IMG/VR virus record: IMGVR_UViG_3300031673_000380
Location: 1-27,612 of that record
Strand: one strand, 5' to 3'
From: a virus
Length of the DNA stretch: 27,612 bases
A program made the position numbers and the translations under genes. This document shows positions 3,797-24,985 of the stretch, piece after piece (position 1 is the first letter of the stretch; each line of letters begins with the position of its first letter). Under the pieces are notes generated by a model, which worked only from the letters and a program-made list of their open reading frames with translations, made no database searches and had not been told where the DNA came from.

Positions 3797-5239
3797 ATGA
3801 GTACTTTAAAAGTTAATAATATTGAACCTACCTCAGGAAATTCTTTAATAATTTCAAGTAGTACAGTCACAATCCCAGGAGATTTAACAGTAACTGGAAA
3901 TATTAATGGAAATATTAGCGGATCCATAGAAATTGGTGGCTTTATAAGTATTGCTGGAGGCGCTAATCAAACAATGACAGTTTCAGGATCTTTAATTGTA
4001 TCCGGAGGAAATACATTCCACAATATTGGGGCAATGACAACTGGTTTTAGCAATGTTGTTGCTTCTGGAAGTGATGCAATGGCTCAAGGTTGGTATACTA
4101 CTGCAAATGGAACTGGTTCACATGCTGAAGGTGGAGCATCTATTGCTAATGGGATGATTTCACATGCCGAAGGAGGATACTTTTATTATAATCCTAATGT
4201 TGGATTATGGTACAATGCTACTATAGGTGGAAATGCTATTGGTATGGGTTCTCATGCTGAAGGAGTTTATACACATGCTTATGGAATAGGCTCACATGCT
4301 GAAGGTGGAGGTACTACTGCAAATGGAGACAACTCTCATGCTGAAGGTGGGTATGTTACTGCATCTTTTGATGCAAACACCAACACACTTACAGTTCTTA
4401 TAGCTAACGGTGGTAGAACAGATGCTAATGGTTCTCATGCTGAAGGCGCTGACACAAGAACACTTTCAACAGGTTGGTATTCACATGCTGAAGGTATTAA
4501 CTCAAGAACAGCTGGATATGGTTCACATGCTGAAGGCACTAATACAAGAACTGATGGGTCAGGCTCACATGCTGAAGGATATTACACTTCTGCTTCAGGT
4601 AACTATTCACATGCTGAAGGAAAAGAAACATTCGCTATAGGAACTTATTCACATGCTGAAGGAGAAAGTACTTCTGCTCAAGGAACAGGTTCACATGCTG
4701 AAGGAAAAACTACATTTTCTATTGGTAATTATTCACATGCTGAAGGTGATGGAACTCAAGCAAGTGGATATGTTTCACATGCTGAAGGAACTCAAACAGA
4801 ATCTCAAGGAACAGGTTCACACGCTGAAGGGAATGAAACAGTTGCTCAAGGTGATTATTCACACGCTGAAGGAAATCAAACATCAGCAATAGGAGTTAAT
4901 TCCCACGCTGAAGGTAATCAAACAACCGCTTTAGGACAATCTTCCCATGCTGAAGGTTGGGGAACAATTGCTTCTGGTTCATATCAACACGTAATAGGTA
5001 CTTTTAATACTCAAGGAGATGATAGTTCACGATTTATCGTTGGTAATGGATCTGGAAATAGCACCCGTTTAGATGCTTTTAAAGTAAGCAACAACAACTC
5101 AATAGTCATCCCACAAACCCAATCAGCTGCTCCATTTTGGACAGGAACTGATGGAGAAATTGTTCCCGCAACAGTAGGAGGTCAATATTTTCTTTACATG
5201 TGGATGAACGGAGCTTGGAGATCAGGTTCATTTGCTTAA
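3797..5239 (+). CDS. Tail fibre/adhesin with SHAEG repeats (YadA-head-like)
   Basis: The 480-residue protein starts MSTLKVNNIEPTSGNSL, a start shared with the fibre at 5322, probably the virion-attachment end. Residues 108 to about 396 hold 18 copies of a 14-residue unit SHAEGxxTxAxGxx. This type of repeat forms left-handed beta-rolls in trimeric adhesin heads (YadA type) and occurs in several phage fibres. Two units, the second and the fifth, carry longer insertions rich in Tyr/Asn and Asp/Asn/Thr that would protrude from the roll. The C-terminal segment (YQHVIGTFNT, RFIVGNGSGN) resembles the usual boundary after SHAEG repeats, but no long intramolecular chaperone follows. The likely role is host attachment. 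There is no late-type motif before it, so it is probably co-transcribed with the gene upstream. A hairpin terminator follows. Confidence 0.85.
   Translation: MSTLKVNNIEPTSGNSLIISSSTVTIPGDLTVTGNINGNISGSIEIGGFISIAGGANQTMTVSGSLIVSGGNTFHNIGAMTTGFSNVVASGSDAMAQGWYTTANGTGSHAEGGASIANGMISHAEGGYFYYNPNVGLWYNATIGGNAIGMGSHAEGVYTHAYGIGSHAEGGGTTANGDNSHAEGGYVTASFDANTNTLTVLIANGGRTDANGSHAEGADTRTLSTGWYSHAEGINSRTAGYGSHAEGTNTRTDGSGSHAEGYYTSASGNYSHAEGKETFAIGTYSHAEGESTSAQGTGSHAEGKTTFSIGNYSHAEGDGTQASGYVSHAEGTQTESQGTGSHAEGNETVAQGDYSHAEGNQTSAIGVNSHAEGNQTTALGQSSHAEGWGTIASGSYQHVIGTFNTQGDDSSRFIVGNGSGNSTRLDAFKVSNNNSIVIPQTQSAAPFWTGTDGEIVPATVGGQYFLYMWMNGAWRSGSFA
4118..4984 (+). repeat. Array of 18 SHAEG-coding 42-nt repeats
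   Basis: The motif TCACATGCTGAAGG and close variants recur with a mostly 42-base period inside the fibre gene. Variation is largely at third codon positions, so selection acts on the protein. The spacing is broken by longer inserts in the second and fifth units. The array gives spurious open frames in another register (4410-4892). Confidence 0.93.
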
Positions 5240-10465: not shown

Positions 10466-12223
10466 ATGGCAGAAACAATTGTATCACCTGGTGTATTAGC
10501 AATAGAAAATGACCAATCCTTTATCACACAAGCTCCTGTACAAGCAGGTGCTGCTATTATAGGACCAACAGTTAAAGGTAAAGTAGGTATCCCTACATTA
10601 GTAACCACATTTGGAGAATACCAAAATAAATTTGGAACTACATTTTTAAGTGGAAGCCAAACCTACACATACCTTACATCAATTTCCGCTTTTAATTATT
10701 TTAACAGTGGAGGAACATCACTATTAGTTACTCGCGTTGTAAGTGGTAGTACAGTAACTGCTTGGACTTCTGCAACATCTTCATTCATCTCATCATCTGC
10801 CCATGCTGCAGGTGCTCCTTATAATACAGATGTGTTTGTTTTAGAAACAATATCCGAAGGAGAAATAACGAATAGTACAGGCCCTACAGGGTCTAATGGA
10901 ACTTTATTAAGTGGCTCAGCAAATAACTTTAGATGGCAAGTAGTATCCCCAGATATTAATTCAGGTACATTTACTGTATTGATTAGACAAGGAAATGATA
11001 CTACAAATGCTCCATCTATTTTAGAAACATGGGGTCCTGTATCTTTAGACCCATTTGCTAGCAATTATATTGAAAAAATAATAGGCAACCAGGTTGAAAC
11101 TATTGCAAATGACCCAACAACTGGTGAGTATTATGTCCAATTTTCAGGAAGTTATCCAAATCAATCAGCATATGTTAGAGTTAAACAAGTAAACCAAACT
11201 ACTCCAAATTATTTTGACAATAATGGTAACCCTCAAAACCAATTTACAGGCTCTTTACCTTTAGCGGCTAGTGGATCGTTTGGAGATGGTAAAGGAAGTA
11301 ATATCCCTACAGGTGTTGCTGGGGCATATTATGAAAATATTTCACAAACCAATATTCAAGGATTAACTTCAGCATCTTATGTTGAATCTATTTCTTTATT
11401 AGCAAATAAAGATGCTTATAGTTATAATTTTATAACAGCCCCAGGATTAATAGGAAATTCTTCATACCATTTTAGTACAGTTCAACAATTAATTACTATG
11501 GTTCAAAATAGAGGAGATGCTATGGCGATAGTAGATGTTGTTGGATATAATTCAAATTTAATCCCTGTAACTACTGCAGCAAGTGCTTTTGATACTTCTT
11601 ATGCAGCAACTTATTGGCCTTGGCTTAAAACAATTGATCCTAATTCAGGACAACAAGTATGGGCACCTGCTTCTACAATGGTTCCTGGAGTATATGCTTT
11701 TAACGATAATGTAGCTTATCCTTGGTTTGCACCTGCAGGTATTAATAGAGGTCTTATGCCAACCGTTACTCAAACTGAAAGAGTATTAACTCAAGGAAAC
11801 AGAGATTTACTTTATCAAGGCAATGTAAACCCAATTGCTACATTTCCTGGATCTGGAATAACCGTATTTGGACAAAAAACATTACAAAAGAAAAAAAGTG
11901 CTTTAGATCGTGTGAATGTGAGACGTTTATTAATTGAACTTAAAAACTACATTTCTCAAATAGGTGATACATTTGTATTTGAACAAAATGATGCTGTTAC
12001 TAGAAACAATTTTGTAGCAGCTATTAACCCATATTTAGCTTCTGTTCAACAACAACAAGGTTTAACAGCCTTTAGAGTAGTAATGGATGAATCAAATAAT
12101 CCACCTTCAGTAGTAGACCAAAACCAACTTATAGGTCAAATTTATTTACAACCTACTAGAACTGCTGAATTTATCATATTAGACTTTAACATATTACCTA
12201 CAGGTGCAACATTTCCTGCTTAG
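10466..12223 (+). CDS. gp18: Tail sheath protein, copy 1 (gp18-like)
   Basis: The 585-residue protein is a contractile tail sheath subunit. The N-terminus SPGVLAIENDQSFITQAPVQ followed by GAAIIGPTVKG is the classic sheath start, and the C-terminal third (LDRVNVRRLLIELKNYISQI, FEQND, INPYL, QPTRTAEFIILDFNILPTGATF) is the conserved sheath core that joins neighbouring subunits. T4 gp18 is 659 residues. The middle (about 130-300) is the variable outer domain. A full-length paralogue follows at 12270, most similar at both ends and diverged in the outer domain. Each copy has its own late motif. Nothing indicates that either copy is broken. Confidence 0.95.
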   Translation: MAETIVSPGVLAIENDQSFITQAPVQAGAAIIGPTVKGKVGIPTLVTTFGEYQNKFGTTFLSGSQTYTYLTSISAFNYFNSGGTSLLVTRVVSGSTVTAWTSATSSFISSSAHAAGAPYNTDVFVLETISEGEITNSTGPTGSNGTLLSGSANNFRWQVVSPDINSGTFTVLIRQGNDTTNAPSILETWGPVSLDPFASNYIEKIIGNQVETIANDPTTGEYYVQFSGSYPNQSAYVRVKQVNQTTPNYFDNNGNPQNQFTGSLPLAASGSFGDGKGSNIPTGVAGAYYENISQTNIQGLTSASYVESISLLANKDAYSYNFITAPGLIGNSSYHFSTVQQLITMVQNRGDAMAIVDVVGYNSNLIPVTTAASAFDTSYAATYWPWLKTIDPNSGQQVWAPASTMVPGVYAFNDNVAYPWFAPAGINRGLMPTVTQTERVLTQGNRDLLYQGNVNPIATFPGSGITVFGQKTLQKKKSALDRVNVRRLLIELKNYISQIGDTFVFEQNDAVTRNNFVAAINPYLASVQQQQGLTAFRVVMDESNNPPSVVDQNQLIGQIYLQPTRTAEFIILDFNILPTGATFPA

Positions 12224-12269: not shown

Positions 12270-13994
12270 ATGGCAAATTTTACAACTTCTCCTGGAGTAG
12301 CAATTAGCGAAATAGATAATACCTTTTTAACTGGACAACCAGTTCAAGCAGGTGCTGCTATCATAGGACCAACAGTTAAAGGTCCTGTAGAAAAACCAAC
12401 CCTAGTAACCTCTTATTCAGATTTTCAAATGTTATTTGGAGATACTTTTATTAGTGGTGGTAATGCTTATTCATATTTAACTTCAATTGCTGCTTACAAT
12501 TATTTTAATTATGGAGGAACTTCATTATTAGTCGCTCGTGTAACAAGTGGTTCTTTTACTCCTGCAACATCTTCGTTTGTTTCCTCATCGGCTCATGCTG
12601 CTGGTGCTCCTTACAATACAAATGTATTTGAATTAGAAACTATTTCTGAAGGGGTTATTATGAATAACTCAGGCCTAGAAGTTTCTGGATCTTTAGTTTC
12701 AGGAAGTAAAGAAAATATAAGATGGGAAATTACCAATTCTAATACTGGATCAGGTACATTTAATGTATTAGTTAGACGTGGTAATGATATAACTTCTAAT
12801 AAAGTTATATTAGAAGCATGGAATAGTCTAACATTAGATCCAAATTCATCTCGTTTTATTTCTCAAGTAATTGGAGATCAAAAATTAAACTACAACTCAG
12901 TTACAAATCAAATGGAGTTATCTGGAAGTTATCCAAATAATTCAAAATTTGTACGTGTAAAAGCAGTAAATCAAACTACACCAAACTTTTTTGATTCAAA
13001 TGGGGTAGCAATTCCGGCCTTTACTGGATCTATTCCATTAAATGAAAGTGGTTCTTTTGGAGGAGCTACGGGAACAGTATTACAATCTTCTGCTATTAAT
13101 TTTTATGAAAACATAACTACTCAAACACAAGGATTAATAGGGAGTGATTATGATGACATGATTGCACTTCTTGGAAATCCTGAAGCATACCAATTCAACC
13201 TACTATTCACCCCAGGATTAGTAAATGATGTTACTGGTCATACAGGTCAAATTTCTAATATTATTAATAATACGATTGCTAGAGGTGATAATATGTTTGT
13301 AGCAGATTTAGTAACATACGGAAGTACAGTTTCTCAAGCTATTACTCAAGCTCAAACCCGTGATACTTCATATGCTGCTTCATATTGGCCTTGGGTTCGA
13401 ATCATTGACCCAGCAACAGGAAAACATGTTTGGGTACCAGCTTCAACGGTAGTACCAGGTGTATATGCCTTTAACGATAGAGTATCTGCTCCTTGGTTTG
13501 CTCCTGCAGGTATTAATCGTGGTGGTTTAAATACAGTATTACAAGCAGAATTAAAATTAACTCAAGCAAACAGAGATGCTTTATACGCTAATAATGTTAA
13601 TCCAATTGCAACATTACCTAAACAAGGTGTTGTAGTATACGGACAGAAAACATTACAAAAAGCACAATCTGCTTTAGATCGTGTAAATGTGCGTCGTTTG
13701 ATGATTGAATTAAAAGCATACATTCGTCAAATTGCTGATACAATAGTATTTGAACAAAATACAATTCAAACTAGAACTTCATTTATATCAAGAGTTAATC
13801 CATATTTAGAAGCTATCCAACAAAAACAAGGATTATACGCTTTTAAAGTAGTAATGGATGATTCAAATAATGGACCAGCAGTAATTGACCAAAATCAACT
13901 AGTAGGCCAAATTTATGTTCAACCAACACGTACAGCTGAATTTATTTCTTTGGATTTCATCTTGTTACCAACAGGAGCTGAATTCCCAGGATAA
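12270..13994 (+). CDS. gp18: Tail sheath protein, copy 2 (gp18-like)
   Basis: The 574-residue protein is a second, intact tail sheath subunit. It shares the start (TSPGVAISEIDNTFLTGQPV, GAAIIGPTVKGPV) and the C-terminal core (LDRVNVRRLMIELKAYIRQI, QPTRTAEFISLDFILLPTGAEF) with copy 1. Outer-domain loops around residues 140-340 differ clearly. The tail tube gene follows directly. Tandem paralogy probably arose by duplication within a phage lineage. The two could form a mixed sheath, or one could serve a special part of the tail such as the baseplate-proximal or neck-proximal ring. That division is inference. Confidence 0.95.
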   Translation: MANFTTSPGVAISEIDNTFLTGQPVQAGAAIIGPTVKGPVEKPTLVTSYSDFQMLFGDTFISGGNAYSYLTSIAAYNYFNYGGTSLLVARVTSGSFTPATSSFVSSSAHAAGAPYNTNVFELETISEGVIMNNSGLEVSGSLVSGSKENIRWEITNSNTGSGTFNVLVRRGNDITSNKVILEAWNSLTLDPNSSRFISQVIGDQKLNYNSVTNQMELSGSYPNNSKFVRVKAVNQTTPNFFDSNGVAIPAFTGSIPLNESGSFGGATGTVLQSSAINFYENITTQTQGLIGSDYDDMIALLGNPEAYQFNLLFTPGLVNDVTGHTGQISNIINNTIARGDNMFVADLVTYGSTVSQAITQAQTRDTSYAASYWPWVRIIDPATGKHVWVPASTVVPGVYAFNDRVSAPWFAPAGINRGGLNTVLQAELKLTQANRDALYANNVNPIATLPKQGVVVYGQKTLQKAQSALDRVNVRRLMIELKAYIRQIADTIVFEQNTIQTRTSFISRVNPYLEAIQQKQGLYAFKVVMDDSNNGPAVIDQNQLVGQIYVQPTRTAEFISLDFILLPTGAEFPG

Positions 13995-14040: not shown

Positions 14041-14529
14041 ATGGCAATTTTAAATCCAAACGAAATATTCTACACAGCGTTTGAACCAAAACAAACAAAC
14101 CGTTTTATCCTTTATATGGATGGAGTTCCTTCATACCTAGTAAAAGGAGTAGGAGCTGTTTCTTTAACCCAAACTGCAGTTGCTCTTAACCACATCAACG
14201 TTCAACGTTATGTGAAAGGAAAAACAAAATGGAATACTATCCAGTTTACTATGTATGAATCAATTACTCCTTCTGGTGCTCAAGCAGTAATGGAATGGGT
14301 ACGTTTAGGACACGAATCAGTAACAGGTAGAGATGGATATTCTGACTTCTATAAGAAAGATATTACATTCAACGTTTTAGGTCCTGTTGGTGATATCGTT
14401 TCTGAATGGATTGTTAAAGGAGCTGTTATTACTGAAGTTAACTTTGGAGATTATAACTGGGATGACGATGGAACACCAGTAAACATCCAAGTAACTGTTC
14501 AACCTGACTACTGTATCTTGAACTACTAA
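14041..14529 (+). CDS. gp19: Tail tube protein (gp19-like)
   Basis: The 162-residue protein has the same length as T4 gp19 (163). Segments typical of the tube family are visible: FEPKQTNRFILYMDGVPSYL near the N-terminus, then YESITPSGAQAVMEWVRLGHE and DFYKKDITFNVLGPVGDIVS, with the end VNFGDYNWDDDGTPVNIQVT. It stacks as hexamers to form the inner tail tube. It lies directly after the sheath genes, as in T4, P2 and most contractile systems. A hairpin terminator follows it. Confidence 0.94.
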   Translation: MAILNPNEIFYTAFEPKQTNRFILYMDGVPSYLVKGVGAVSLTQTAVALNHINVQRYVKGKTKWNTIQFTMYESITPSGAQAVMEWVRLGHESVTGRDGYSDFYKKDITFNVLGPVGDIVSEWIVKGAVITEVNFGDYNWDDDGTPVNIQVTVQPDYCILNY

Positions 14530-15336: not shown

Positions 15337-16065
15337 ATGAGTGAATTTAAATTACCAACTGAAACAGTTGAGTTACCATCAAAAGGCTTACTATATCCTG
15401 AAGATTCTGAATTAGCAAAAGGTATTATTGAAATTAAATACATGACCGCTAAAGAAGAAGATATTCTTACAAACCAATCATATATTAAAAATGGTACTGT
15501 ATTAGACAAATTAATAAAATCATTAATTGTATCAAAAATTAATTATGACGATTTGTTAGTTGGTGATAAAAATGCTATTATGATTGCTGCTCGTATTTTA
15601 GGATATGGTGCTGAATATACTTTTAATTATTTAGGCGAATCACACACAGTAGATTTATCTCAAGTTGAAAATAAACCACTTAAAGAAGAATTATTTATAA
15701 GTCATATAAACGAATTTACTTTTACACTCCCTAAATCAGGTAATGTAGTTACATTTAAACTTTTAAGTCATAAAGACGAACAAGATATTACACGTGAACT
15801 AGAAGGTTTGAAAAAAATCAATAAAGATGCTTCTCCTGAACTTTCAACACGTTTAAAATACCTAATTACCTCAGTAGAAGGAAAACGAGACAAAAAAGAT
15901 ATTCGAGAGTTTGTCGACAATTATCTTCTCGCCCAAGATTCCAGGGCATTAAGAGAATATGTTAGAGAGATTCAACCCGATGTTGATCTAACTTTTTTTC
16001 CCGACGGGAGTAATGATAGAATCAATATCCCAATTGGGATTAGCTTTTTTTGGCCTGACTACTGA
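15337..16065 (+). CDS. gp26: Tail/baseplate assembly protein (gp26-like; P2 E-type position)
   Basis: The 242-residue protein fits the T4 gp26 type: an N-terminal VELPSKGLLYPEDSELAKG (a KG-LY-P motif), then IEIKYMTAKEEDIL, and a C-terminus ending PIGISFFWPDY, which matches the PI-x-x-FFWP end of this family. Homologues often carry a Cys-rich knuckle just before this end; here it reads FPDGSNDRI with no cysteine. gp26 was annotated as a hub subunit, but its position before the tape measure and its overlap with the next gene are those of tail assembly chaperones such as P2 E and lambda G. The last 53 bases overlap the next gene in another frame, and two runs of seven T (15993-15999 and 16045-16051) lie near the end. 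Confidence 0.78.
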   Translation: MSEFKLPTETVELPSKGLLYPEDSELAKGIIEIKYMTAKEEDILTNQSYIKNGTVLDKLIKSLIVSKINYDDLLVGDKNAIMIAARILGYGAEYTFNYLGESHTVDLSQVENKPLKEELFISHINEFTFTLPKSGNVVTFKLLSHKDEQDITRELEGLKKINKDASPELSTRLKYLITSVEGKRDKKDIREFVDNYLLAQDSRALREYVREIQPDVDLTFFPDGSNDRINIPIGISFFWPDY

Positions 16066-16354
16066 TACAATATTGCAATCTAGAACTGCAATTTTTAAAC
16101 AAATACATCAAATAGTTTTTCATGGAAACGGAGGATATGATTGGCATACCGTTTACAACATGCCAATTTGGCTTCGTCGTTTTACTTTTAATGAAATTAG
16201 AAAACATTTTGAAGAGGAAAATGAAGCTATACAAAAACAATCTAGAGGAAAAAACTCAAATTCAAAAACTGTAATTGATTCAGATGGTAAAGTTAAACTT
16301 CCAAATTTACTCCAAAAACCTACCAATAACAAACACCCTGTTAAATACGGCTAA
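16013..16354 (+). CDS. gp51: Overlapping tail assembly protein (gp51-like; possible frameshift extension of gp26)
   Basis: This 113-residue frame overlaps the gp26-like gene by 53 bases in the +1 frame. The core IVFHGNGGYDWHTVYNMPIWLRRFTFNEIRKHFEEENE matches the Y-x-MPxxLRRF signature of T4 gp51-type hub assembly proteins. It ends with a polar tail rich in Lys, Asn and Ser. It could be translated from the ATG at 16013, or as a fusion after a +1 (or -2) shift at a T7 run, as found for P2 E+E', lambda G-T and Mu. The frame is open only from 15992, so a shift must occur between there and 16065. The tape measure gene follows, the usual target of such chaperones. Confidence 0.78.
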   Translation: MIESISQLGLAFFGLTTDTILQSRTAIFKQIHQIVFHGNGGYDWHTVYNMPIWLRRFTFNEIRKHFEEENEAIQKQSRGKNSNSKTVIDSDGKVKLPNLLQKPTNNKHPVKYG

Positions 16355-16392: not shown

Positions 16393-18981
16393 ATGGGAGC
16401 ATCAGAAGATTTATCAAATATAAATAAAGAAATAAATTCTATTCGAAAAGAATTAGGAAGAAAACCTCTCCAACCTTTTAAATTAGAAGATCTTGAAAAA
16501 GCTAAAGAATCATTAGCAGGATTAAGTGCAGAACTTAGAGAAATGAGTTCTGATTTAGATTATATTTCTAAATCTTTTAAAGATAGTGTTAATGAACTCT
16601 CTAAACAAAATACATACCTTTCAGATGCTAAATCTTCTCTTAGAGGAATATCAAGTATTTCAGAAAAAATATTACAATATAGAAAAGGAGAAACATCCTT
16701 AAGTGAAAAAGAACTTCAAAATCTTCAAAAACAAGCAAAAGCTAAATTTACCTCATTACAAAATTCTATTAGAAGTGGCCAAATAACAGGTAAAAATCTT
16801 AAAGAAGCTCAAGATTCTTTAGATCAACAAGATAAATTTAATAAATCACTTGATAGAACAATAGAACTTAATAAAGAAGTTAATAAAGAAATAGGTTTAC
16901 TTGGAAATGGAATAGGAGGAGTATCAAAATTATTATCTAATATGGGATTTGGGGATTTATCCAAACCCCTTCAAGATGCTGTTGATAAAACTAAAAACGC
17001 TCGTTTACAACAAAAATTAAATAATGATGAAGTAAAAAAATTAAAGAAAGAATATGCTGGATTAGGTGTACATGATTTAGAAAAGAAAAAAGCATTAAGA
17101 GATCAAATGGCTTCTTTAGCATCACAAAATAAAGAACTTGGCTCCCAAACAAGTAAATATAAAAATATAGGTAATGCTTTAAAAGGTCAACTTACTAGTT
17201 ATAATGCTATTGATGCTATAATAGTAGGGTTAATAGATGGTTTTAACCAATCCCAAAAAGGAATTGGGGATATGGCTAAAGGTTTAGGGATGTCTGCTAC
17301 TCGATCCGCAGATATGAGGCATGAATTTGCAAATATAGCTAATCTTTCTATGAATGCTAATCTTACTGTAAAAGATCTTCAAGCTTCACAAGTAGCGGTA
17401 GGTCAAGCTTTAGGTAGCAATGCTATGCTTAATGAAGCAGATTTAGAAACTATGACTGATATAGTTGAAAAAACAGGTCTTCAACATAGTGAGTTAATGG
17501 GAATTGAAAAACTGTCCTTAGCAACTGGTACTAGTTTAGATGATAATGTTAAAAGTGCTTTAGGTGGTGCAACAGCATTTGCAAAGCAAAATAAAATGGT
17601 TATTGATAATAATAAAGTTTTAAAAGAAGTAAATAAAGCATCTGCATCTTTAAAATTATCTTTAGGAGGAAGTGTTAAGGAATTAGGAAAAGCAGTAGTT
17701 CAAGCCCAAAAGTTTGGTTTAAATTTAGAACAAGCCGGAAAAATGTCATCTAGTTTACTTGATTTTGAATCATCTATTGAAAATGAATTAAGTGCGGAAT
17801 TATTAACTGGTAAAGATTTAAATTTAGAACGCGCTAGAGGATTAGCTTTAAATGGAAAAACAGCTGAAGCAGCTGCAGAAATTGCTGCTCAAGTAGGTTC
17901 ATCTGCTGAATTTGGAAAAATGAACGTTATTCAACAAGAAGCTATTGCAAAAGCTATTGGGTTAGGTAGAGAGGAATTAGCAGCTTCATTAATAGAAAAA
18001 GAATCATTAGCTGCACTAAATGCTAAAGAAGGAGAAACCGCACTACAAGCATATGAAAACTTAAAAAAACAAGGATTAACCCAAGATGAAATAATAGATA
18101 AAATAGGAGAAGAAGCAGCATTACAACTCGAACAACAATCAGCTCAAGATAAATTTAATAAATCTGTTGAAAAATTAAAAGAGATATTTACCCAAGTAAT
18201 GGATGCTTTAGCTCCTGTATTTAGTGGTTTATCTAATATAGCTACTGTTATAATGCCTGCTATAAATTTTATGCTACAGCCTATAGTAACAGCTTTTACG
18301 GGTATGGGAAAAATTCTTACAGGAAGTTTTGATACTTTAACTGGGTGGCAAGGAGTATTAGGAGGTATATTAACTATATGGGCAGGTATTTCGGCCTATA
18401 CTAAACTAAATGCTATGAGAGTAGCAGGTATAGCAGCTATAGAAGGTACTATAGCTCTTCATAAAAGAGCCCAAAATATGTTGGATTTAAAGGGATTCGC
18501 ATTAGGTAAAAGTAAATTAGTGCAATTAGCAGCCCAAGCAGCTTTATGGGCTTTAGCAAATCCACTTACCGCTTTAACTATAGGATTAGCAGCAGGAGGT
18601 GCTATATATGCAGCATCTCAGTCTTATATGAAAGATGGTGTAATTGGTCCTGGTGGAGAAACTGTAGTATCTGGACCAAAAGGCTCTATTCAAGTAGATA
18701 AACAAGACTCTATGATAGTAGGTACAAATTTATTTGGAAACGACATTAAATCTGAACCGGGTAAATCTACCCAAATGGGTGGAAAAGGTGAAATTAAATT
18801 GGGAGGTGATTCTTCAGCAGTAGTAAACGCTATTATGGAATTAAGAAAAGACGTAAACGCTTTAGCTAATCGCCCAATAAGTGTAGCTATTGACGGTAAA
18901 AAAGTAATTGAAGCAACAACAGGTGCTCAACCAAACACTCAAGGAGACGAAAATAGAAAAAATAGTTACAAAATGTCTTAA
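16393..18981 (+). CDS. Tail tape measure protein
   Basis: At 862 residues this is the second longest protein in the window. Residues 1 to about 280 are almost entirely helical and charged (coiled coil), as expected for a rod that sets tail length. Hydrophobic segments lie at about 608-640, 655-672 and 712-741 (ALWALANPLTALTIGLAAGG), typical of tape measures that enter the host membrane during DNA ejection. A conserved tail follows at about 748-782: DGVIGPGGETVVSGPKGSIQ and DSMIVGTNL, a signature seen near the end of many phage tape measures. The position after the overlapping chaperone genes agrees. The functional counterpart in T4 is gp29 (590 residues). Confidence 0.9.
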   Translation: MGASEDLSNINKEINSIRKELGRKPLQPFKLEDLEKAKESLAGLSAELREMSSDLDYISKSFKDSVNELSKQNTYLSDAKSSLRGISSISEKILQYRKGETSLSEKELQNLQKQAKAKFTSLQNSIRSGQITGKNLKEAQDSLDQQDKFNKSLDRTIELNKEVNKEIGLLGNGIGGVSKLLSNMGFGDLSKPLQDAVDKTKNARLQQKLNNDEVKKLKKEYAGLGVHDLEKKKALRDQMASLASQNKELGSQTSKYKNIGNALKGQLTSYNAIDAIIVGLIDGFNQSQKGIGDMAKGLGMSATRSADMRHEFANIANLSMNANLTVKDLQASQVAVGQALGSNAMLNEADLETMTDIVEKTGLQHSELMGIEKLSLATGTSLDDNVKSALGGATAFAKQNKMVIDNNKVLKEVNKASASLKLSLGGSVKELGKAVVQAQKFGLNLEQAGKMSSSLLDFESSIENELSAELLTGKDLNLERARGLALNGKTAEAAAEIAAQVGSSAEFGKMNVIQQEAIAKAIGLGREELAASLIEKESLAALNAKEGETALQAYENLKKQGLTQDEIIDKIGEEAALQLEQQSAQDKFNKSVEKLKEIFTQVMDALAPVFSGLSNIATVIMPAINFMLQPIVTAFTGMGKILTGSFDTLTGWQGVLGGILTIWAGISAYTKLNAMRVAGIAAIEGTIALHKRAQNMLDLKGFALGKSKLVQLAAQAALWALANPLTALTIGLAAGGAIYAASQSYMKDGVIGPGGETVVSGPKGSIQVDKQDSMIVGTNLFGNDIKSEPGKSTQMGGKGEIKLGGDSSAVVNAIMELRKDVNALANRPISVAIDGKKVIEATTGAQPNTQGDENRKNSYKMS

Positions 18982-21757: not shown

Positions 21758-24700
21758 ATGTCAATAATAGGACAGGAAATAGAAAGTTATACTGTAAGTC
21801 AAATTAATGCAAGACAAAAGTTACATGGAAGTGGAACTTCTACTAGTAGAACACCACAACAAATCAGTGTATTAAATTCAAATACTTCTTGGGTAAAATT
21901 AGCATCTGGTGTTAAAATTGATAAATCGAAATTAACAGAATTAGGATTACCTACTTCTCTTGATGGGATGGAGTTGGCAAAAAATAATGTTTTATTCGGA
22001 GGGACTTCTAAACTAGTAGGAGGAGAAAGACTTCAACAAAAAGAAGGATTTTTACCCTACCAATCCAATAGTTCATATTCACATGGAGATTTTGGATATT
22101 CTCCTATGCCTGGAATTATAAGTGCTGATATAAAAGCATTAAATAGGGGTTCATTAAAAAAAGCTACTGTTAGATTTAAAGTACATAACAAACAACAATT
22201 TGATATAGTTGATGTTTTATACATGAGATTAGGATATACTGTTCTACTTGAATGGGGAAATAGTATGTACACTTCTAACGGTACCGATAGACAATTAGTT
22301 CAACAAACCATTGTAGAAGATTCAGTAAGATTTTTTAGTTCAGGATATGAAAAAGGAAAGTCTTATAGAAACATGCTTCCCGTAATAGAGTTTTATCGAA
22401 ATAAATACCAAGGAAATTATGATGGATTACTAGGTAAAGTATCAAATTTTAATTGGTCTTTTCAATCTGATGGGTCATATGATATAGAAATTACCATAAT
22501 AAGTTTAGGTGATGTAGTTGAGTCTTTAAAAACTAATATTTCATCAAATAAACAATTAAGTGGATTCATTGAAAATACCCTTGCTGCTAATCCTTCAGGA
22601 AGTGGAGAAGAAGGTAATAATCTTGTTGAAGAAAATGCTGACTCTAATGATATAGCAGCAATGCTATATTGTTGGAAATATGTCAATAAAGACAAATTAG
22701 CATATGAATCATATGAAGATAGCATTTATATAAAACGCCCAGATGATGCAGGAGATAGATTTGTAGGAGCATTTCTTGAAACTTCAACTACTCTTACTGC
22801 TACATCTGTTACATATAGATTTGCTTATTTAGCTTATGGATATGATACAGAAATATACCCAGACTTTAGTAGTAATTCTTATTACAAACCTGTTGAAATA
22901 TCTTATGACATTAGTGCTTATCCAAACCACGAAGAAGAAGCTATAAAAGAAGCTAAAGCAAAAAGTGATAAATTAAGAACTGATGGAAAAACTCCATTAA
23001 GTTTTGTTAATCCTGATGGTGATAAGGATTATAAAAGAGTTTTAGCAGGTTATGAAAGTTTAGGGAGTAAAAAAACAACTATTGATAGTCCTTTAACTAA
23101 TTTTAATAAAAAAGATGCATGTTTTATAAATACTGAACCTGATAAGCAATTTTATTTAAGATTTGGAGCTTTATTAACATATTTAAAAAATAACATTATT
23201 CCTAAAGTAAATACATCTAATTCAAATTACAACAATAAACCACCTATTTTTAATATAAATACTGATGTGTATGGAAATGGAAATTTAGGTAACTATATGT
23301 ACTCTTTACCAAATCAAATTTCTTTAGACCCAAGAGTTTGTATAGTAAGAAATGATAAATTTCAAACTACTAGTGGGATAACAGAAGTATACAAACATTT
23401 AAGTCCTTTTAGAGCTGAAGATTATGCAGAAAATCCAAACCTTAATAAGGCATATATTATGAATATATACTTAAATTTTAATTTTATAATAGAGTGTATA
23501 AATAATAATTTAGATGAAAAAGGAGATATTGGAATATTTGGATTTTTAAAAGCAATATGTGATGGTTTAAATAAATCTTTAGGAGGAATAAATAATTTAG
23601 AACCCATAATTAAAGAAGAATCTAATACCCTTTATATCCTTGACACCACCCCCATCCCAGGTTTAGGATCTCAAAATGTCCCATATACATTGCAGCTTTT
23701 TGGATATAATAAAAATATTTCTAACTTTGTAAGAAAAGTTGATTTAAAAACAGCAATCACCCCAGAATTTGCTACTATGGTTACTGTAGGAGCTACAGCA
23801 GGTGGATATGTTAAAGGAACAGAAGCTACAGCGTTTTCAAAATGGAATGATGGGTTAAAAGATAGATTTCAAGAAGAATTTATCCCTGGAAACGAAAATT
23901 CTGCTAAAGAAGGAGATGAAGATGAAGCTGCATCAAACTATACTAATAAATTTATATCAGTTAAAGCAGGTACTGCTTCTCGTTATGGATTTAAAGGAAA
24001 TTTAGTTAGTGATGATGCAAAAAATCTTCAAATAGACCCAGGCGCTATTGAAAAAAATATTTCAGTTGTAACAGAATACTATAAATATTTAATTGCATCT
24101 CAAAAAAATCAACAAGGTGGAACTATTGGATTTATTCCGTTTAAATTGAATTTTTCAATGGATGGGATATCGGGTATAAAAATATACAACAAATTACACG
24201 TTGATACTCGTTTTTTACCTAAAGCATATGGAACTGAACTAGATTTAATTGTAACAGGAGTTAGCCATAAATTATCAAATGATGACTGGGAAACAGATAT
24301 TGAAACTACATTAATTCCTAAAACAAATGAATTAAAAGATTTAGTTATTACAGCAGAAGCTATAATAGAAGATATAAACAATAATCCACCTACTAATACC
24401 TCTAGTAGTGCTGCAAGTAATGCTGCTTCATTAAAAGTAGAAGATTTAACTCAATTTGACAGAAAAATTCCTAAAGTTACTAACGGTACTGGTTGGGAAG
24501 CAGAAGCTGCTAATTTTATAGCTCTTAAAGAAAGTTTTTCCCCAACAGCAGCATGGGATATTAACCATTATAGAGGTGGATATGGATCAGATAAAGTCTA
24601 TAAAAATGGTAAACTCGTTGAAGTAACAAAAAATACTACTTTTACTAAAGAAGAAGCAGCTCAAACTTTAGAAAAACATTCCATAACTACATACAGTACC

Positions 24701-24985
24701 CCAATAATTGGAGCTATTGGAAAATCTAATTGGGAAAAATTAAATAACCATCAAAAAGCAGCCCTAGTGAGTTTAGGATATAATGTTGGAGCATTTTATA
24801 TGACTGCAAGAGGATATGGTAAAAAAATAGCAGCTGCTATTAAAAAAGGAGATTACCAAGAAGCTGCCCAAGGAATTTTAGATGGACCAAAAACCGCTGG
24901 AGGAGAATATCTTGCATCCCTAGCTAGAAGAAGAAAAGAAGAAGCCCAATTATTCTTATACCCAGCAAATAAATCTATATATTAA
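21758..24985 (+). CDS. Baseplate hub protein (gp27/P2 D-like) fused to a C-terminal lysozyme domain
   Basis: At 1075 residues this is the longest protein in the window. The N-terminal and central parts look like a tail hub: VRFKVHNKQQFDIVDVLYMRLGYTVLLEWG near residue 130-165, and a late hub segment FKLNFSMDGISGIKIYNKL with VTGVSHKLSNDDWETDI around 790-850. A Ser/Asn/Pro-rich linker (about 870-905) leads to a lysozyme-like domain at about 905-1070. There FIALKESFSPTAAWDINHYR and GGYGSDK match the lysozyme pattern in which a Glu (E925) is followed nine residues later by Asp (D934), the spacing of E11 and D20 in T4 lysozyme. QKAALVSLGYNVGAF is the second family signature. In T4, hub (gp27) and lysozyme (in gp5) are separate chains; here they appear joined. 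The stop overlaps the next start (TAATG). Confidence 0.82.
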   Translation: MSIIGQEIESYTVSQINARQKLHGSGTSTSRTPQQISVLNSNTSWVKLASGVKIDKSKLTELGLPTSLDGMELAKNNVLFGGTSKLVGGERLQQKEGFLPYQSNSSYSHGDFGYSPMPGIISADIKALNRGSLKKATVRFKVHNKQQFDIVDVLYMRLGYTVLLEWGNSMYTSNGTDRQLVQQTIVEDSVRFFSSGYEKGKSYRNMLPVIEFYRNKYQGNYDGLLGKVSNFNWSFQSDGSYDIEITIISLGDVVESLKTNISSNKQLSGFIENTLAANPSGSGEEGNNLVEENADSNDIAAMLYCWKYVNKDKLAYESYEDSIYIKRPDDAGDRFVGAFLETSTTLTATSVTYRFAYLAYGYDTEIYPDFSSNSYYKPVEISYDISAYPNHEEEAIKEAKAKSDKLRTDGKTPLSFVNPDGDKDYKRVLAGYESLGSKKTTIDSPLTNFNKKDACFINTEPDKQFYLRFGALLTYLKNNIIPKVNTSNSNYNNKPPIFNINTDVYGNGNLGNYMYSLPNQISLDPRVCIVRNDKFQTTSGITEVYKHLSPFRAEDYAENPNLNKAYIMNIYLNFNFIIECINNNLDEKGDIGIFGFLKAICDGLNKSLGGINNLEPIIKEESNTLYILDTTPIPGLGSQNVPYTLQLFGYNKNISNFVRKVDLKTAITPEFATMVTVGATAGGYVKGTEATAFSKWNDGLKDRFQEEFIPGNENSAKEGDEDEAASNYTNKFISVKAGTASRYGFKGNLVSDDAKNLQIDPGAIEKNISVVTEYYKYLIASQKNQQGGTIGFIPFKLNFSMDGISGIKIYNKLHVDTRFLPKAYGTELDLIVTGVSHKLSNDDWETDIETTLIPKTNELKDLVITAEAIIEDINNNPPTNTSSSAASNAASLKVEDLTQFDRKIPKVTNGTGWEAEAANFIALKESFSPTAAWDINHYRGGYGSDKVYKNGKLVEVTKNTTFTKEEAAQTLEKHSITTYSTPIIGAIGKSNWEKLNNHQKAALVSLGYNVGAFYMTARGYGKKIAAAIKKGDYQEAAQGILDGPKTAGGEYLASLARRRKEEAQLFLYPANKSIY

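Follow-up and report, generated by a model that had tools for sequence, protein, structure and literature searches.

A T4 gp26-type tail assembly chaperone whose long form is very probably made by +1 ribosomal frameshifting

The locus at 15337–16354 of the viral DNA analysed here (a stretch of 27,612 nucleotides, hereafter the window) very probably encodes a tail assembly chaperone in two forms, the longer of which would be made by a +1 ribosomal frameshift. Comparison with relatives points to one shift site kept across the whole family and, in the window's own subclade, probably to a second one upstream. That tail chaperones are frameshifted, and that T4-like phages have -1 forms, has been published before; what appears to be new is a large clade using +1, a rule describing where it slips, a family in which the direction has changed, and a tandem site. 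An abstract by Vladimirov, Gautam and Davidson (Virology 566:9, 2022) reportedly describes conserved frameshifting across several T4-like groups. A 2016 review (PMC5009743) describes the G-T frameshift as conserved in long-tailed phages other than T4; shifts of -1, -2 and +1 are all known, and Mu shifts by -2. According to passages of PMC10885494 and PMC12846349, a link between T4 gp26/gp51 and tail chaperones has already been published (Vladimirov et al. 2022, as cited there); passages of the former also describe a short gene plus a fused gene in some T4-like phages, and passages of the latter describe known poly-T -1 signals in T4-like phages. The present analysis extends this published frameshift to a very large, little-studied +1 clade of T4-related bacterial viruses.

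The chaperone locus and its predicted products

The gene at 15337–16065 (+ strand) is a T4 gp26-type tail assembly chaperone, here called TAC-N. Its short form of 242 amino acids, read in the 0 frame, matches phrog_150 (E 1.5e-8); T4 gp26 and T4 gp51 both match this same model, and T4 gp51 matches the family along its full length. The gene sits between the tail tube gene (14041–14529) and the tape measure gene (16393–18981, + strand), as expected of a G/GT-type chaperone, and two sheath genes also lie upstream. The tape measure protein (862 amino acids), the likely client of the chaperone, has a homologue by BLASTP (E 3e-34) in the protein annotated as tape measure in Flavobacterium phage immuto, which bears out the gene position given in an earlier note made from the window's sequence. 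The sheath genes (10466–12223 and 12270–13994) are tandem paralogues that both match phrog_23 with E about 1e-71; the immuto record has one sheath gene.

A second frame opens at 15992, after a TAA at 15989–15991, and runs to 16354 with its first ATG at 16013; relative to the first frame it is +1 or, equivalently, -2. The + strand of the 27.6 kb window holds four runs of seven or more T, two of which fall within the 74-nt overlap of the frames (15993–15999, in frame as ACT TTT TTT CCC, and 16045–16051, as AGC TTT TTT TGG). The earlier note had placed the opening, the gp26 overlap and both runs exactly, and its proposal that a programmed frameshift joins the frames of a tail chaperone is supported by the conserved frame and site in relatives. 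From 16052 to 16354 (+ strand; 100 codons plus stop) the +1 frame gives TAC-C, a C-terminal extension homologous to the C-terminus of T4 gp51 and to the -1 extensions of T4-like phages. One-step +1 translation of 15337–16354 (+ strand) runs without an internal stop and gives a predicted fusion product of 338 amino acids, TAC-NC, composed of gp26 residues 1–238 plus 100 for a shift at the second T run (site 2), or of 221 plus 117 for a shift at the first (site 1).

In the mechanism that we propose, most ribosomes would stop at TGA 16063–16065 and yield TAC-N, while a minority would shift +1 at UUU UUU U. Peptidyl-tRNA-Phe (anticodon GAA), wobble-paired on the likely P-site codon UUU 16048–16050 (+ strand), would re-pair one base downstream on UUU, base 16051 would be skipped, and reading would go on through GGC CUG ACU to 16354 to give TAC-NC. 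By analogy with lambda gpG/gpGT, TAC-N would coat the tape measure protein, whose gene follows directly downstream, and TAC-C would recruit tail-tube subunits. The predicted +1 junction peptides are IPIGISFFGLTTDT for site 2 and DLTFFPTGVM for site 1; a -2 shift at site 2 would give an extra Phe at the junction (SFFFGL). Sequence comparison shows the frame, the site and selection on the extension; that ribosomes shift at all, how efficiently they do so, how the tRNA moves and what the proteins bind are inferred.

Both domains were folded separately with AlphaFold2. For the TAC-N model (pLDDT 89), the best three VIA-align matches were 3FGX, 3KLU and the HK97 tail assembly chaperone 2OB9, at modest Z scores of 5.0–5.9, and the Foldseek match was weak (E 0.7). 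We take 3FGX and 3KLU to be chaperone relatives too. Pfam matches were weak for both parts (PF12322 against TAC-N, below the cut-off, and PF20546/DUF6760 against TAC-C). A structure search with the TAC-C model returned nothing significant, its rank 2 being a 57-aa protein of pf16 (probability 0.92), and a search for solved structures by sequence found none. Searching bacterial genome contigs with TAC-C, with a reach of close relatives, yielded only four relatives, all on MAG contigs (including Flavobacteriales, Winogradskyella and Legionellales), and no injection-system (eCIS) locus.

Profile comparison by hhalign matched the alignment of +1 extensions (A3) to an alignment combining ten -1 extensions with the C-terminus of T4 gp51 (A5) at 97.4% (E 9.7e-12); against the three-sequence T4/KVP40/Bellamy set alone, A3 reached only 21%. 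Together with the shared phrog_150 match, this upholds the earlier suggestion that T4 gp26 and gp51 belong to the same system. The 'gp51-like gene' of that suggestion was misnamed, since the second frame covers only the C-terminal domain and the counterpart of T4 gp51 is the entire long form. Its identification as TAC-C, an extension of TAC-N predicted to be read after a +1 shift and not a separate gene, is well supported by the family comparison.

Relative frame and the family-wide shift site

Relatives were sought in viral contigs, with each of the two ORFs and with two deeper alignments as queries, and among annotated phages; several hundred loci resulted. Patterns for the deeper searches came from the protein's N-terminal half, so that they did not select for the shift site; one pattern of an initial viral-contig search (FFPDGSND) covers site 1. 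The evaluable set comprised 263 distinct loci, 144 of them below 80% identity, all with the extension in +1. By search, this frame was seen in 158/159 loci of the first set of relatives, confirming in homologues the relative frame seen in the window, and in 150/150 evaluable deeper relatives at 25–60% identity; the relatives are phylogenetically linked, and binomial-style figures overstate the significance of such counts. The sole exception (L142) carries a contig indel inside gp26 and has an intact shift motif. This indel, around 2130–2194, adjoins an A-run and breaks gp26, and is probably a sequencing error. A sequencing or assembly artefact as the source of the overlapping layout was ruled out by the hundreds of independent contigs.

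Annotated phages with the +1 arrangement include immuto, Microcystis phage Mel-JY01, Streptococcus phage GXN1, Bacillus phage SP-15, Listeria phage LIS04 and Rhodothermus phage RM378, in whose records the extension is a short fragment, has its own ORF or is absent. It is annotated as a short fragment or omitted for immuto (L162, 6839–6949), SP-15 (L176, 3321–3440), LIS04 (L169, 4711–4942) and GXN1 (L165, after 4732). A huge-phage relative (L167, LR756511) appears to have at 4771 a downstream ORF in a different frame, with its own ATG overlapping the gp26 stop, and may be a separate-gene form.

Comparison of these loci indicates that the second T run (16045–16051), within AGC TTT TTT TGG CCT GAC at 16042–16059 (+ strand), is the family-wide site of the predicted shift. 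UUU followed by U or C is found at this run or its equivalent in 263/263 loci and in 144/144 of those below 80% identity. The commonest form is TTT TTT TGG CCT, and the variants TTC TTT TGG, TTT CTT TGG, TTT CTT TAC, CTT TTT TGG, TTC TTT CGT, TTT TTT CGT, TTT TTT TAC and TTT CTA TTC each permit re-pairing one base downstream by tRNA-Phe (or by tRNA-Leu on CUU, as in RF2). Phage immuto, a cultured relative that grows on Flavobacterium sp. LMO8, reads TTT CTT TGG and has no site 1. The second Phe codon of the site was TTT in 138/138 loci and TTC in 0/138, compared with 21–22% TTC in other conserved Phe columns. A T directly before the run occurs in 2/144 loci, against 68.9 expected from residue and codon usage; this avoidance abolishes T TTT TTT, the heptamer needed for the usual -1 slip. 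With its extension in +1 and a preceding T avoided, the site does not fit the canonical -1 scheme (X XXY YYZ). P-site +1 re-pairing of the RF2 type is possible in all loci, on CUU U in some. Synonymous sites at the overlap are constrained, and the slippery sequence is conserved as in G/GT-type chaperones.

The A-site codon is usually TGG or TAC and never a stop. GGG is enriched at codon -3 before the shift in loci without site 1 (26/66 vs 7%), at a spacing that is not RF2-like, and a conserved Shine-Dalgarno-like stimulator at RF2 spacing could not be established among the relatives. GAG is also enriched in these loci, at codons -10 and -9 (25/31 and 35/45 vs 27%), and with GGG at -3 may form a stimulatory purine element. 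Predictions of stimulatory RNA structure upstream of, downstream of or spanning site 2 gave mean z values of -0.2 to -0.8, about as in gp26 control stretches.

Judged on the window's sequence alone, a -2 shift is as possible as a +1 shift, and the earlier note had named both. A Mu-like -2 slip at the T7 run would add one Phe; by a simple test, T7 would let tRNA-Phe re-pair two bases back in 247/263 loci, and Mu uses such a shift at its tail chaperone (PMC5009743). Against this stand about 24 relatives (16 with TTC TTT Y, 7 with TTT CTT T and 1 with TTT CTA TTC), whose versions of the site, among them TTC TTT TGG, TTC TTT CGT and TTT CTT TAC, allow +1 re-pairing and make both cognate re-pairing two bases back and homopolymer slippage impossible, as well as the selection of the bases before the run away from T. 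The note gave the relation of the frames correctly, and +1 is favoured over -2 on the family-wide evidence because these 24 or so versions of the site block the -2 slip and transcriptional slippage; we regard a Mu-like shift as improbable.

Two separate overlapping genes, with the gp51-like product starting at ATG 16013–16015 (+ strand) or by re-initiation at a non-ATG codon, are more improbable still. An ATG does occur within the overlap in the window and some relatives, and only a short distance separates the gp26 stop from the extension. This ATG is not conserved, however, and lies only 2 nt from GGGAG in the window. An ATG upstream of the conserved core of the extension is absent in 146/263 loci, and ATG, GTG and TTG are all absent in 20/263, two of which (L241 and L340) lack CTG/ATH codons too. 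In many loci the +1 frame is moreover blocked immediately ahead of the shift site, with a stop at most 12 nt upstream of site 2 in 22, and constraint on the T run at the nucleotide level would have no role if the genes were separate. An overlapping downstream frame that keeps its relative frame and has no conserved start of its own is, in turn, the arrangement of G/GT-type chaperones. Transcriptional slippage to mRNAs one base shorter is the least credible alternative: the run is a homopolymer of seven and such slippage is known in other systems, but the layout is kept in relatives with interrupted runs (TTCTTTTGG, TTTCTTTAC and TTTCTATTC), and eight T are avoided, not favoured.

A candidate second shift site upstream

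The first T run, within TTTTTTTCCC at 15993–16002 (+ strand; in frame ACT TTT TTT CCC), is probably a second +1 site, present in the window's subclade only. The earlier note had treated the two runs alike as shift sites, which holds for the second as the conserved site; the two are not equivalent, the first being a subclade-specific extra. Upstream runs of this type, recognised by an FFP motif, are confined to 100/263 loci (29 representatives), and for this reason a family-wide role for site 1 was rejected, as it was from the many non-FFP loci with a +1 stop shortly upstream of site 2. Among the representatives, the distance from site 1 to site 2 is 51 nt in 28/29 and site 1 reads TTT TTT CCC in 26/29. 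T before the run is kept here, unlike at site 2.

Two features argue for a shift at this position. From one site to the other, 29/29 representatives have an open +1 frame, against 12.9 expected when synonymous codons were sampled for the same residues; in control comparisons, the -1 frame was open in 4/29 (4.0 expected), which also excluded site 1 as a -1 site, and an equal-length upstream stretch in 0/29 (2.2 expected). All 84 distinct inter-site peptides are open, and a +1-frame stop lies at most 9 nt upstream of site 1 in 25/29 representatives. In addition, the Pro codon of site 1 is CCC in 27/28, against a 7% background, the strongest codon bias in the region; site 1 loci share ancestry, and at 70% identity 17 representatives are left, 15 of them with CCC. 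The Leu codon two before site 1 (15988–15990 in the window) is unusually CTA or CTG (CTG in 10/28 vs about 0 in the background), so that in most relatives a +1-frame TAA or TGA immediately precedes site 1.

The run could instead be a conserved protein motif (FFP) that together with chance openness mimics a shift site. Its restriction to one subclade and the conservation of the FFP residues themselves would agree with this, and we consider it unlikely, though less so than any of the alternatives at site 2. It accounts for neither the CCC bias nor the excess openness of the +1 frame with controls at expectation, and the synonymous choices in the IPIG codons before site 2 (CCA 23/25, ATT 22/25, GGG 20/25) are far more uniform than in relatives without site 1. 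If site 1 is a shift site, a +1 slip on UUU-C or CCC-N is the simplest reading, though the slip here could instead be -2. Such a slip at UUUUUUUCCC would probably lead to the same product with a different 17-residue linker, and would raise output or make a second isoform.

Shift direction across the family and related systems

The chaperones of T4-like phages belong to the same family as TAC-N (phrog_150), share the homologous C-terminal domain and likewise have short and long forms. They differ in how the long form is reached. In RAS14, XacN1, PA5oct, BF, RaK2, Atu_ph07, Bellamy, KVP40, XaC1 and Phosso (T4-like/jumbo phages), the corresponding extension is in -1 and follows T TTT TT[TC], a poly-T signal at an FF position equivalent to the window's site, whereas KVP40, cyanophage Bellamy, RaK2, PA5oct and the others are set apart from the window's clade by its +1 frame and its UUU followed by U or C. 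T4 itself has no overlap fusion, gp26 and gp51 being two divergently transcribed genes. On a tree of the short forms, direction follows clades, with 4 changes compared with 12.4 for shuffled labels, on deep branches that are long and uncertain.

Taken together, we lean towards a combined reading, less firmly than towards the +1 shift itself, in which two tandem programmed +1 sites 51 nt apart lead into one frame, so that two slips would set the ratio of short to long form and give two linker isoforms, and in which the direction of the shift (+1, -1 or the T4 gene split) changed within a homologous family that kept the fusion. The locus would then exemplify recoding that has been conserved, together with its product, through a switch of direction between clades. 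The family also provides a natural data set of over 260 sequences in which the +1 slip signal is UUU then U or C, with a non-T before it and no obvious RNA structure, and the subclade with the apparent second site adds to this data set.

The arrangement resembles lambda gpG/gpGT and P2 E/E', in which a gene before the tape measure gene undergoes low-level frameshifting near the end of the short form to give short and long products; these systems use a -1 shift and belong to a different sequence family. The tail chaperone of phage Mu reaches the same relative frame by -2 (PMC5009743), whereas the family evidence here favours +1. A tail gene of the haloarchaeal myovirus HSTV-2, an archaeal virus, can be likened by its description as a tail-chaperone counterpart with a shift that is very likely +1 (PMC5009743). 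Escherichia coli RF2 (prfB) and Listeria phage PSA provide precedents for +1 P-site slips, on CUU U in RF2 and CCC in PSA; some relatives of the window offer CUU U, and site 1 contains CCC. They differ in the gene concerned, and the window's family has no A-site stop codon and no established Shine-Dalgarno stimulator.

Elsewhere in the window, the baseplate region encodes a 1075-aa protein (21758–24985) that carries an endolysin domain (phrog_7) at its C-terminus and may be a gp5-like tail lysozyme, and a 480-aa protein encoded at 3797–5239 contains many SHAEG repeats (phrog_25468).
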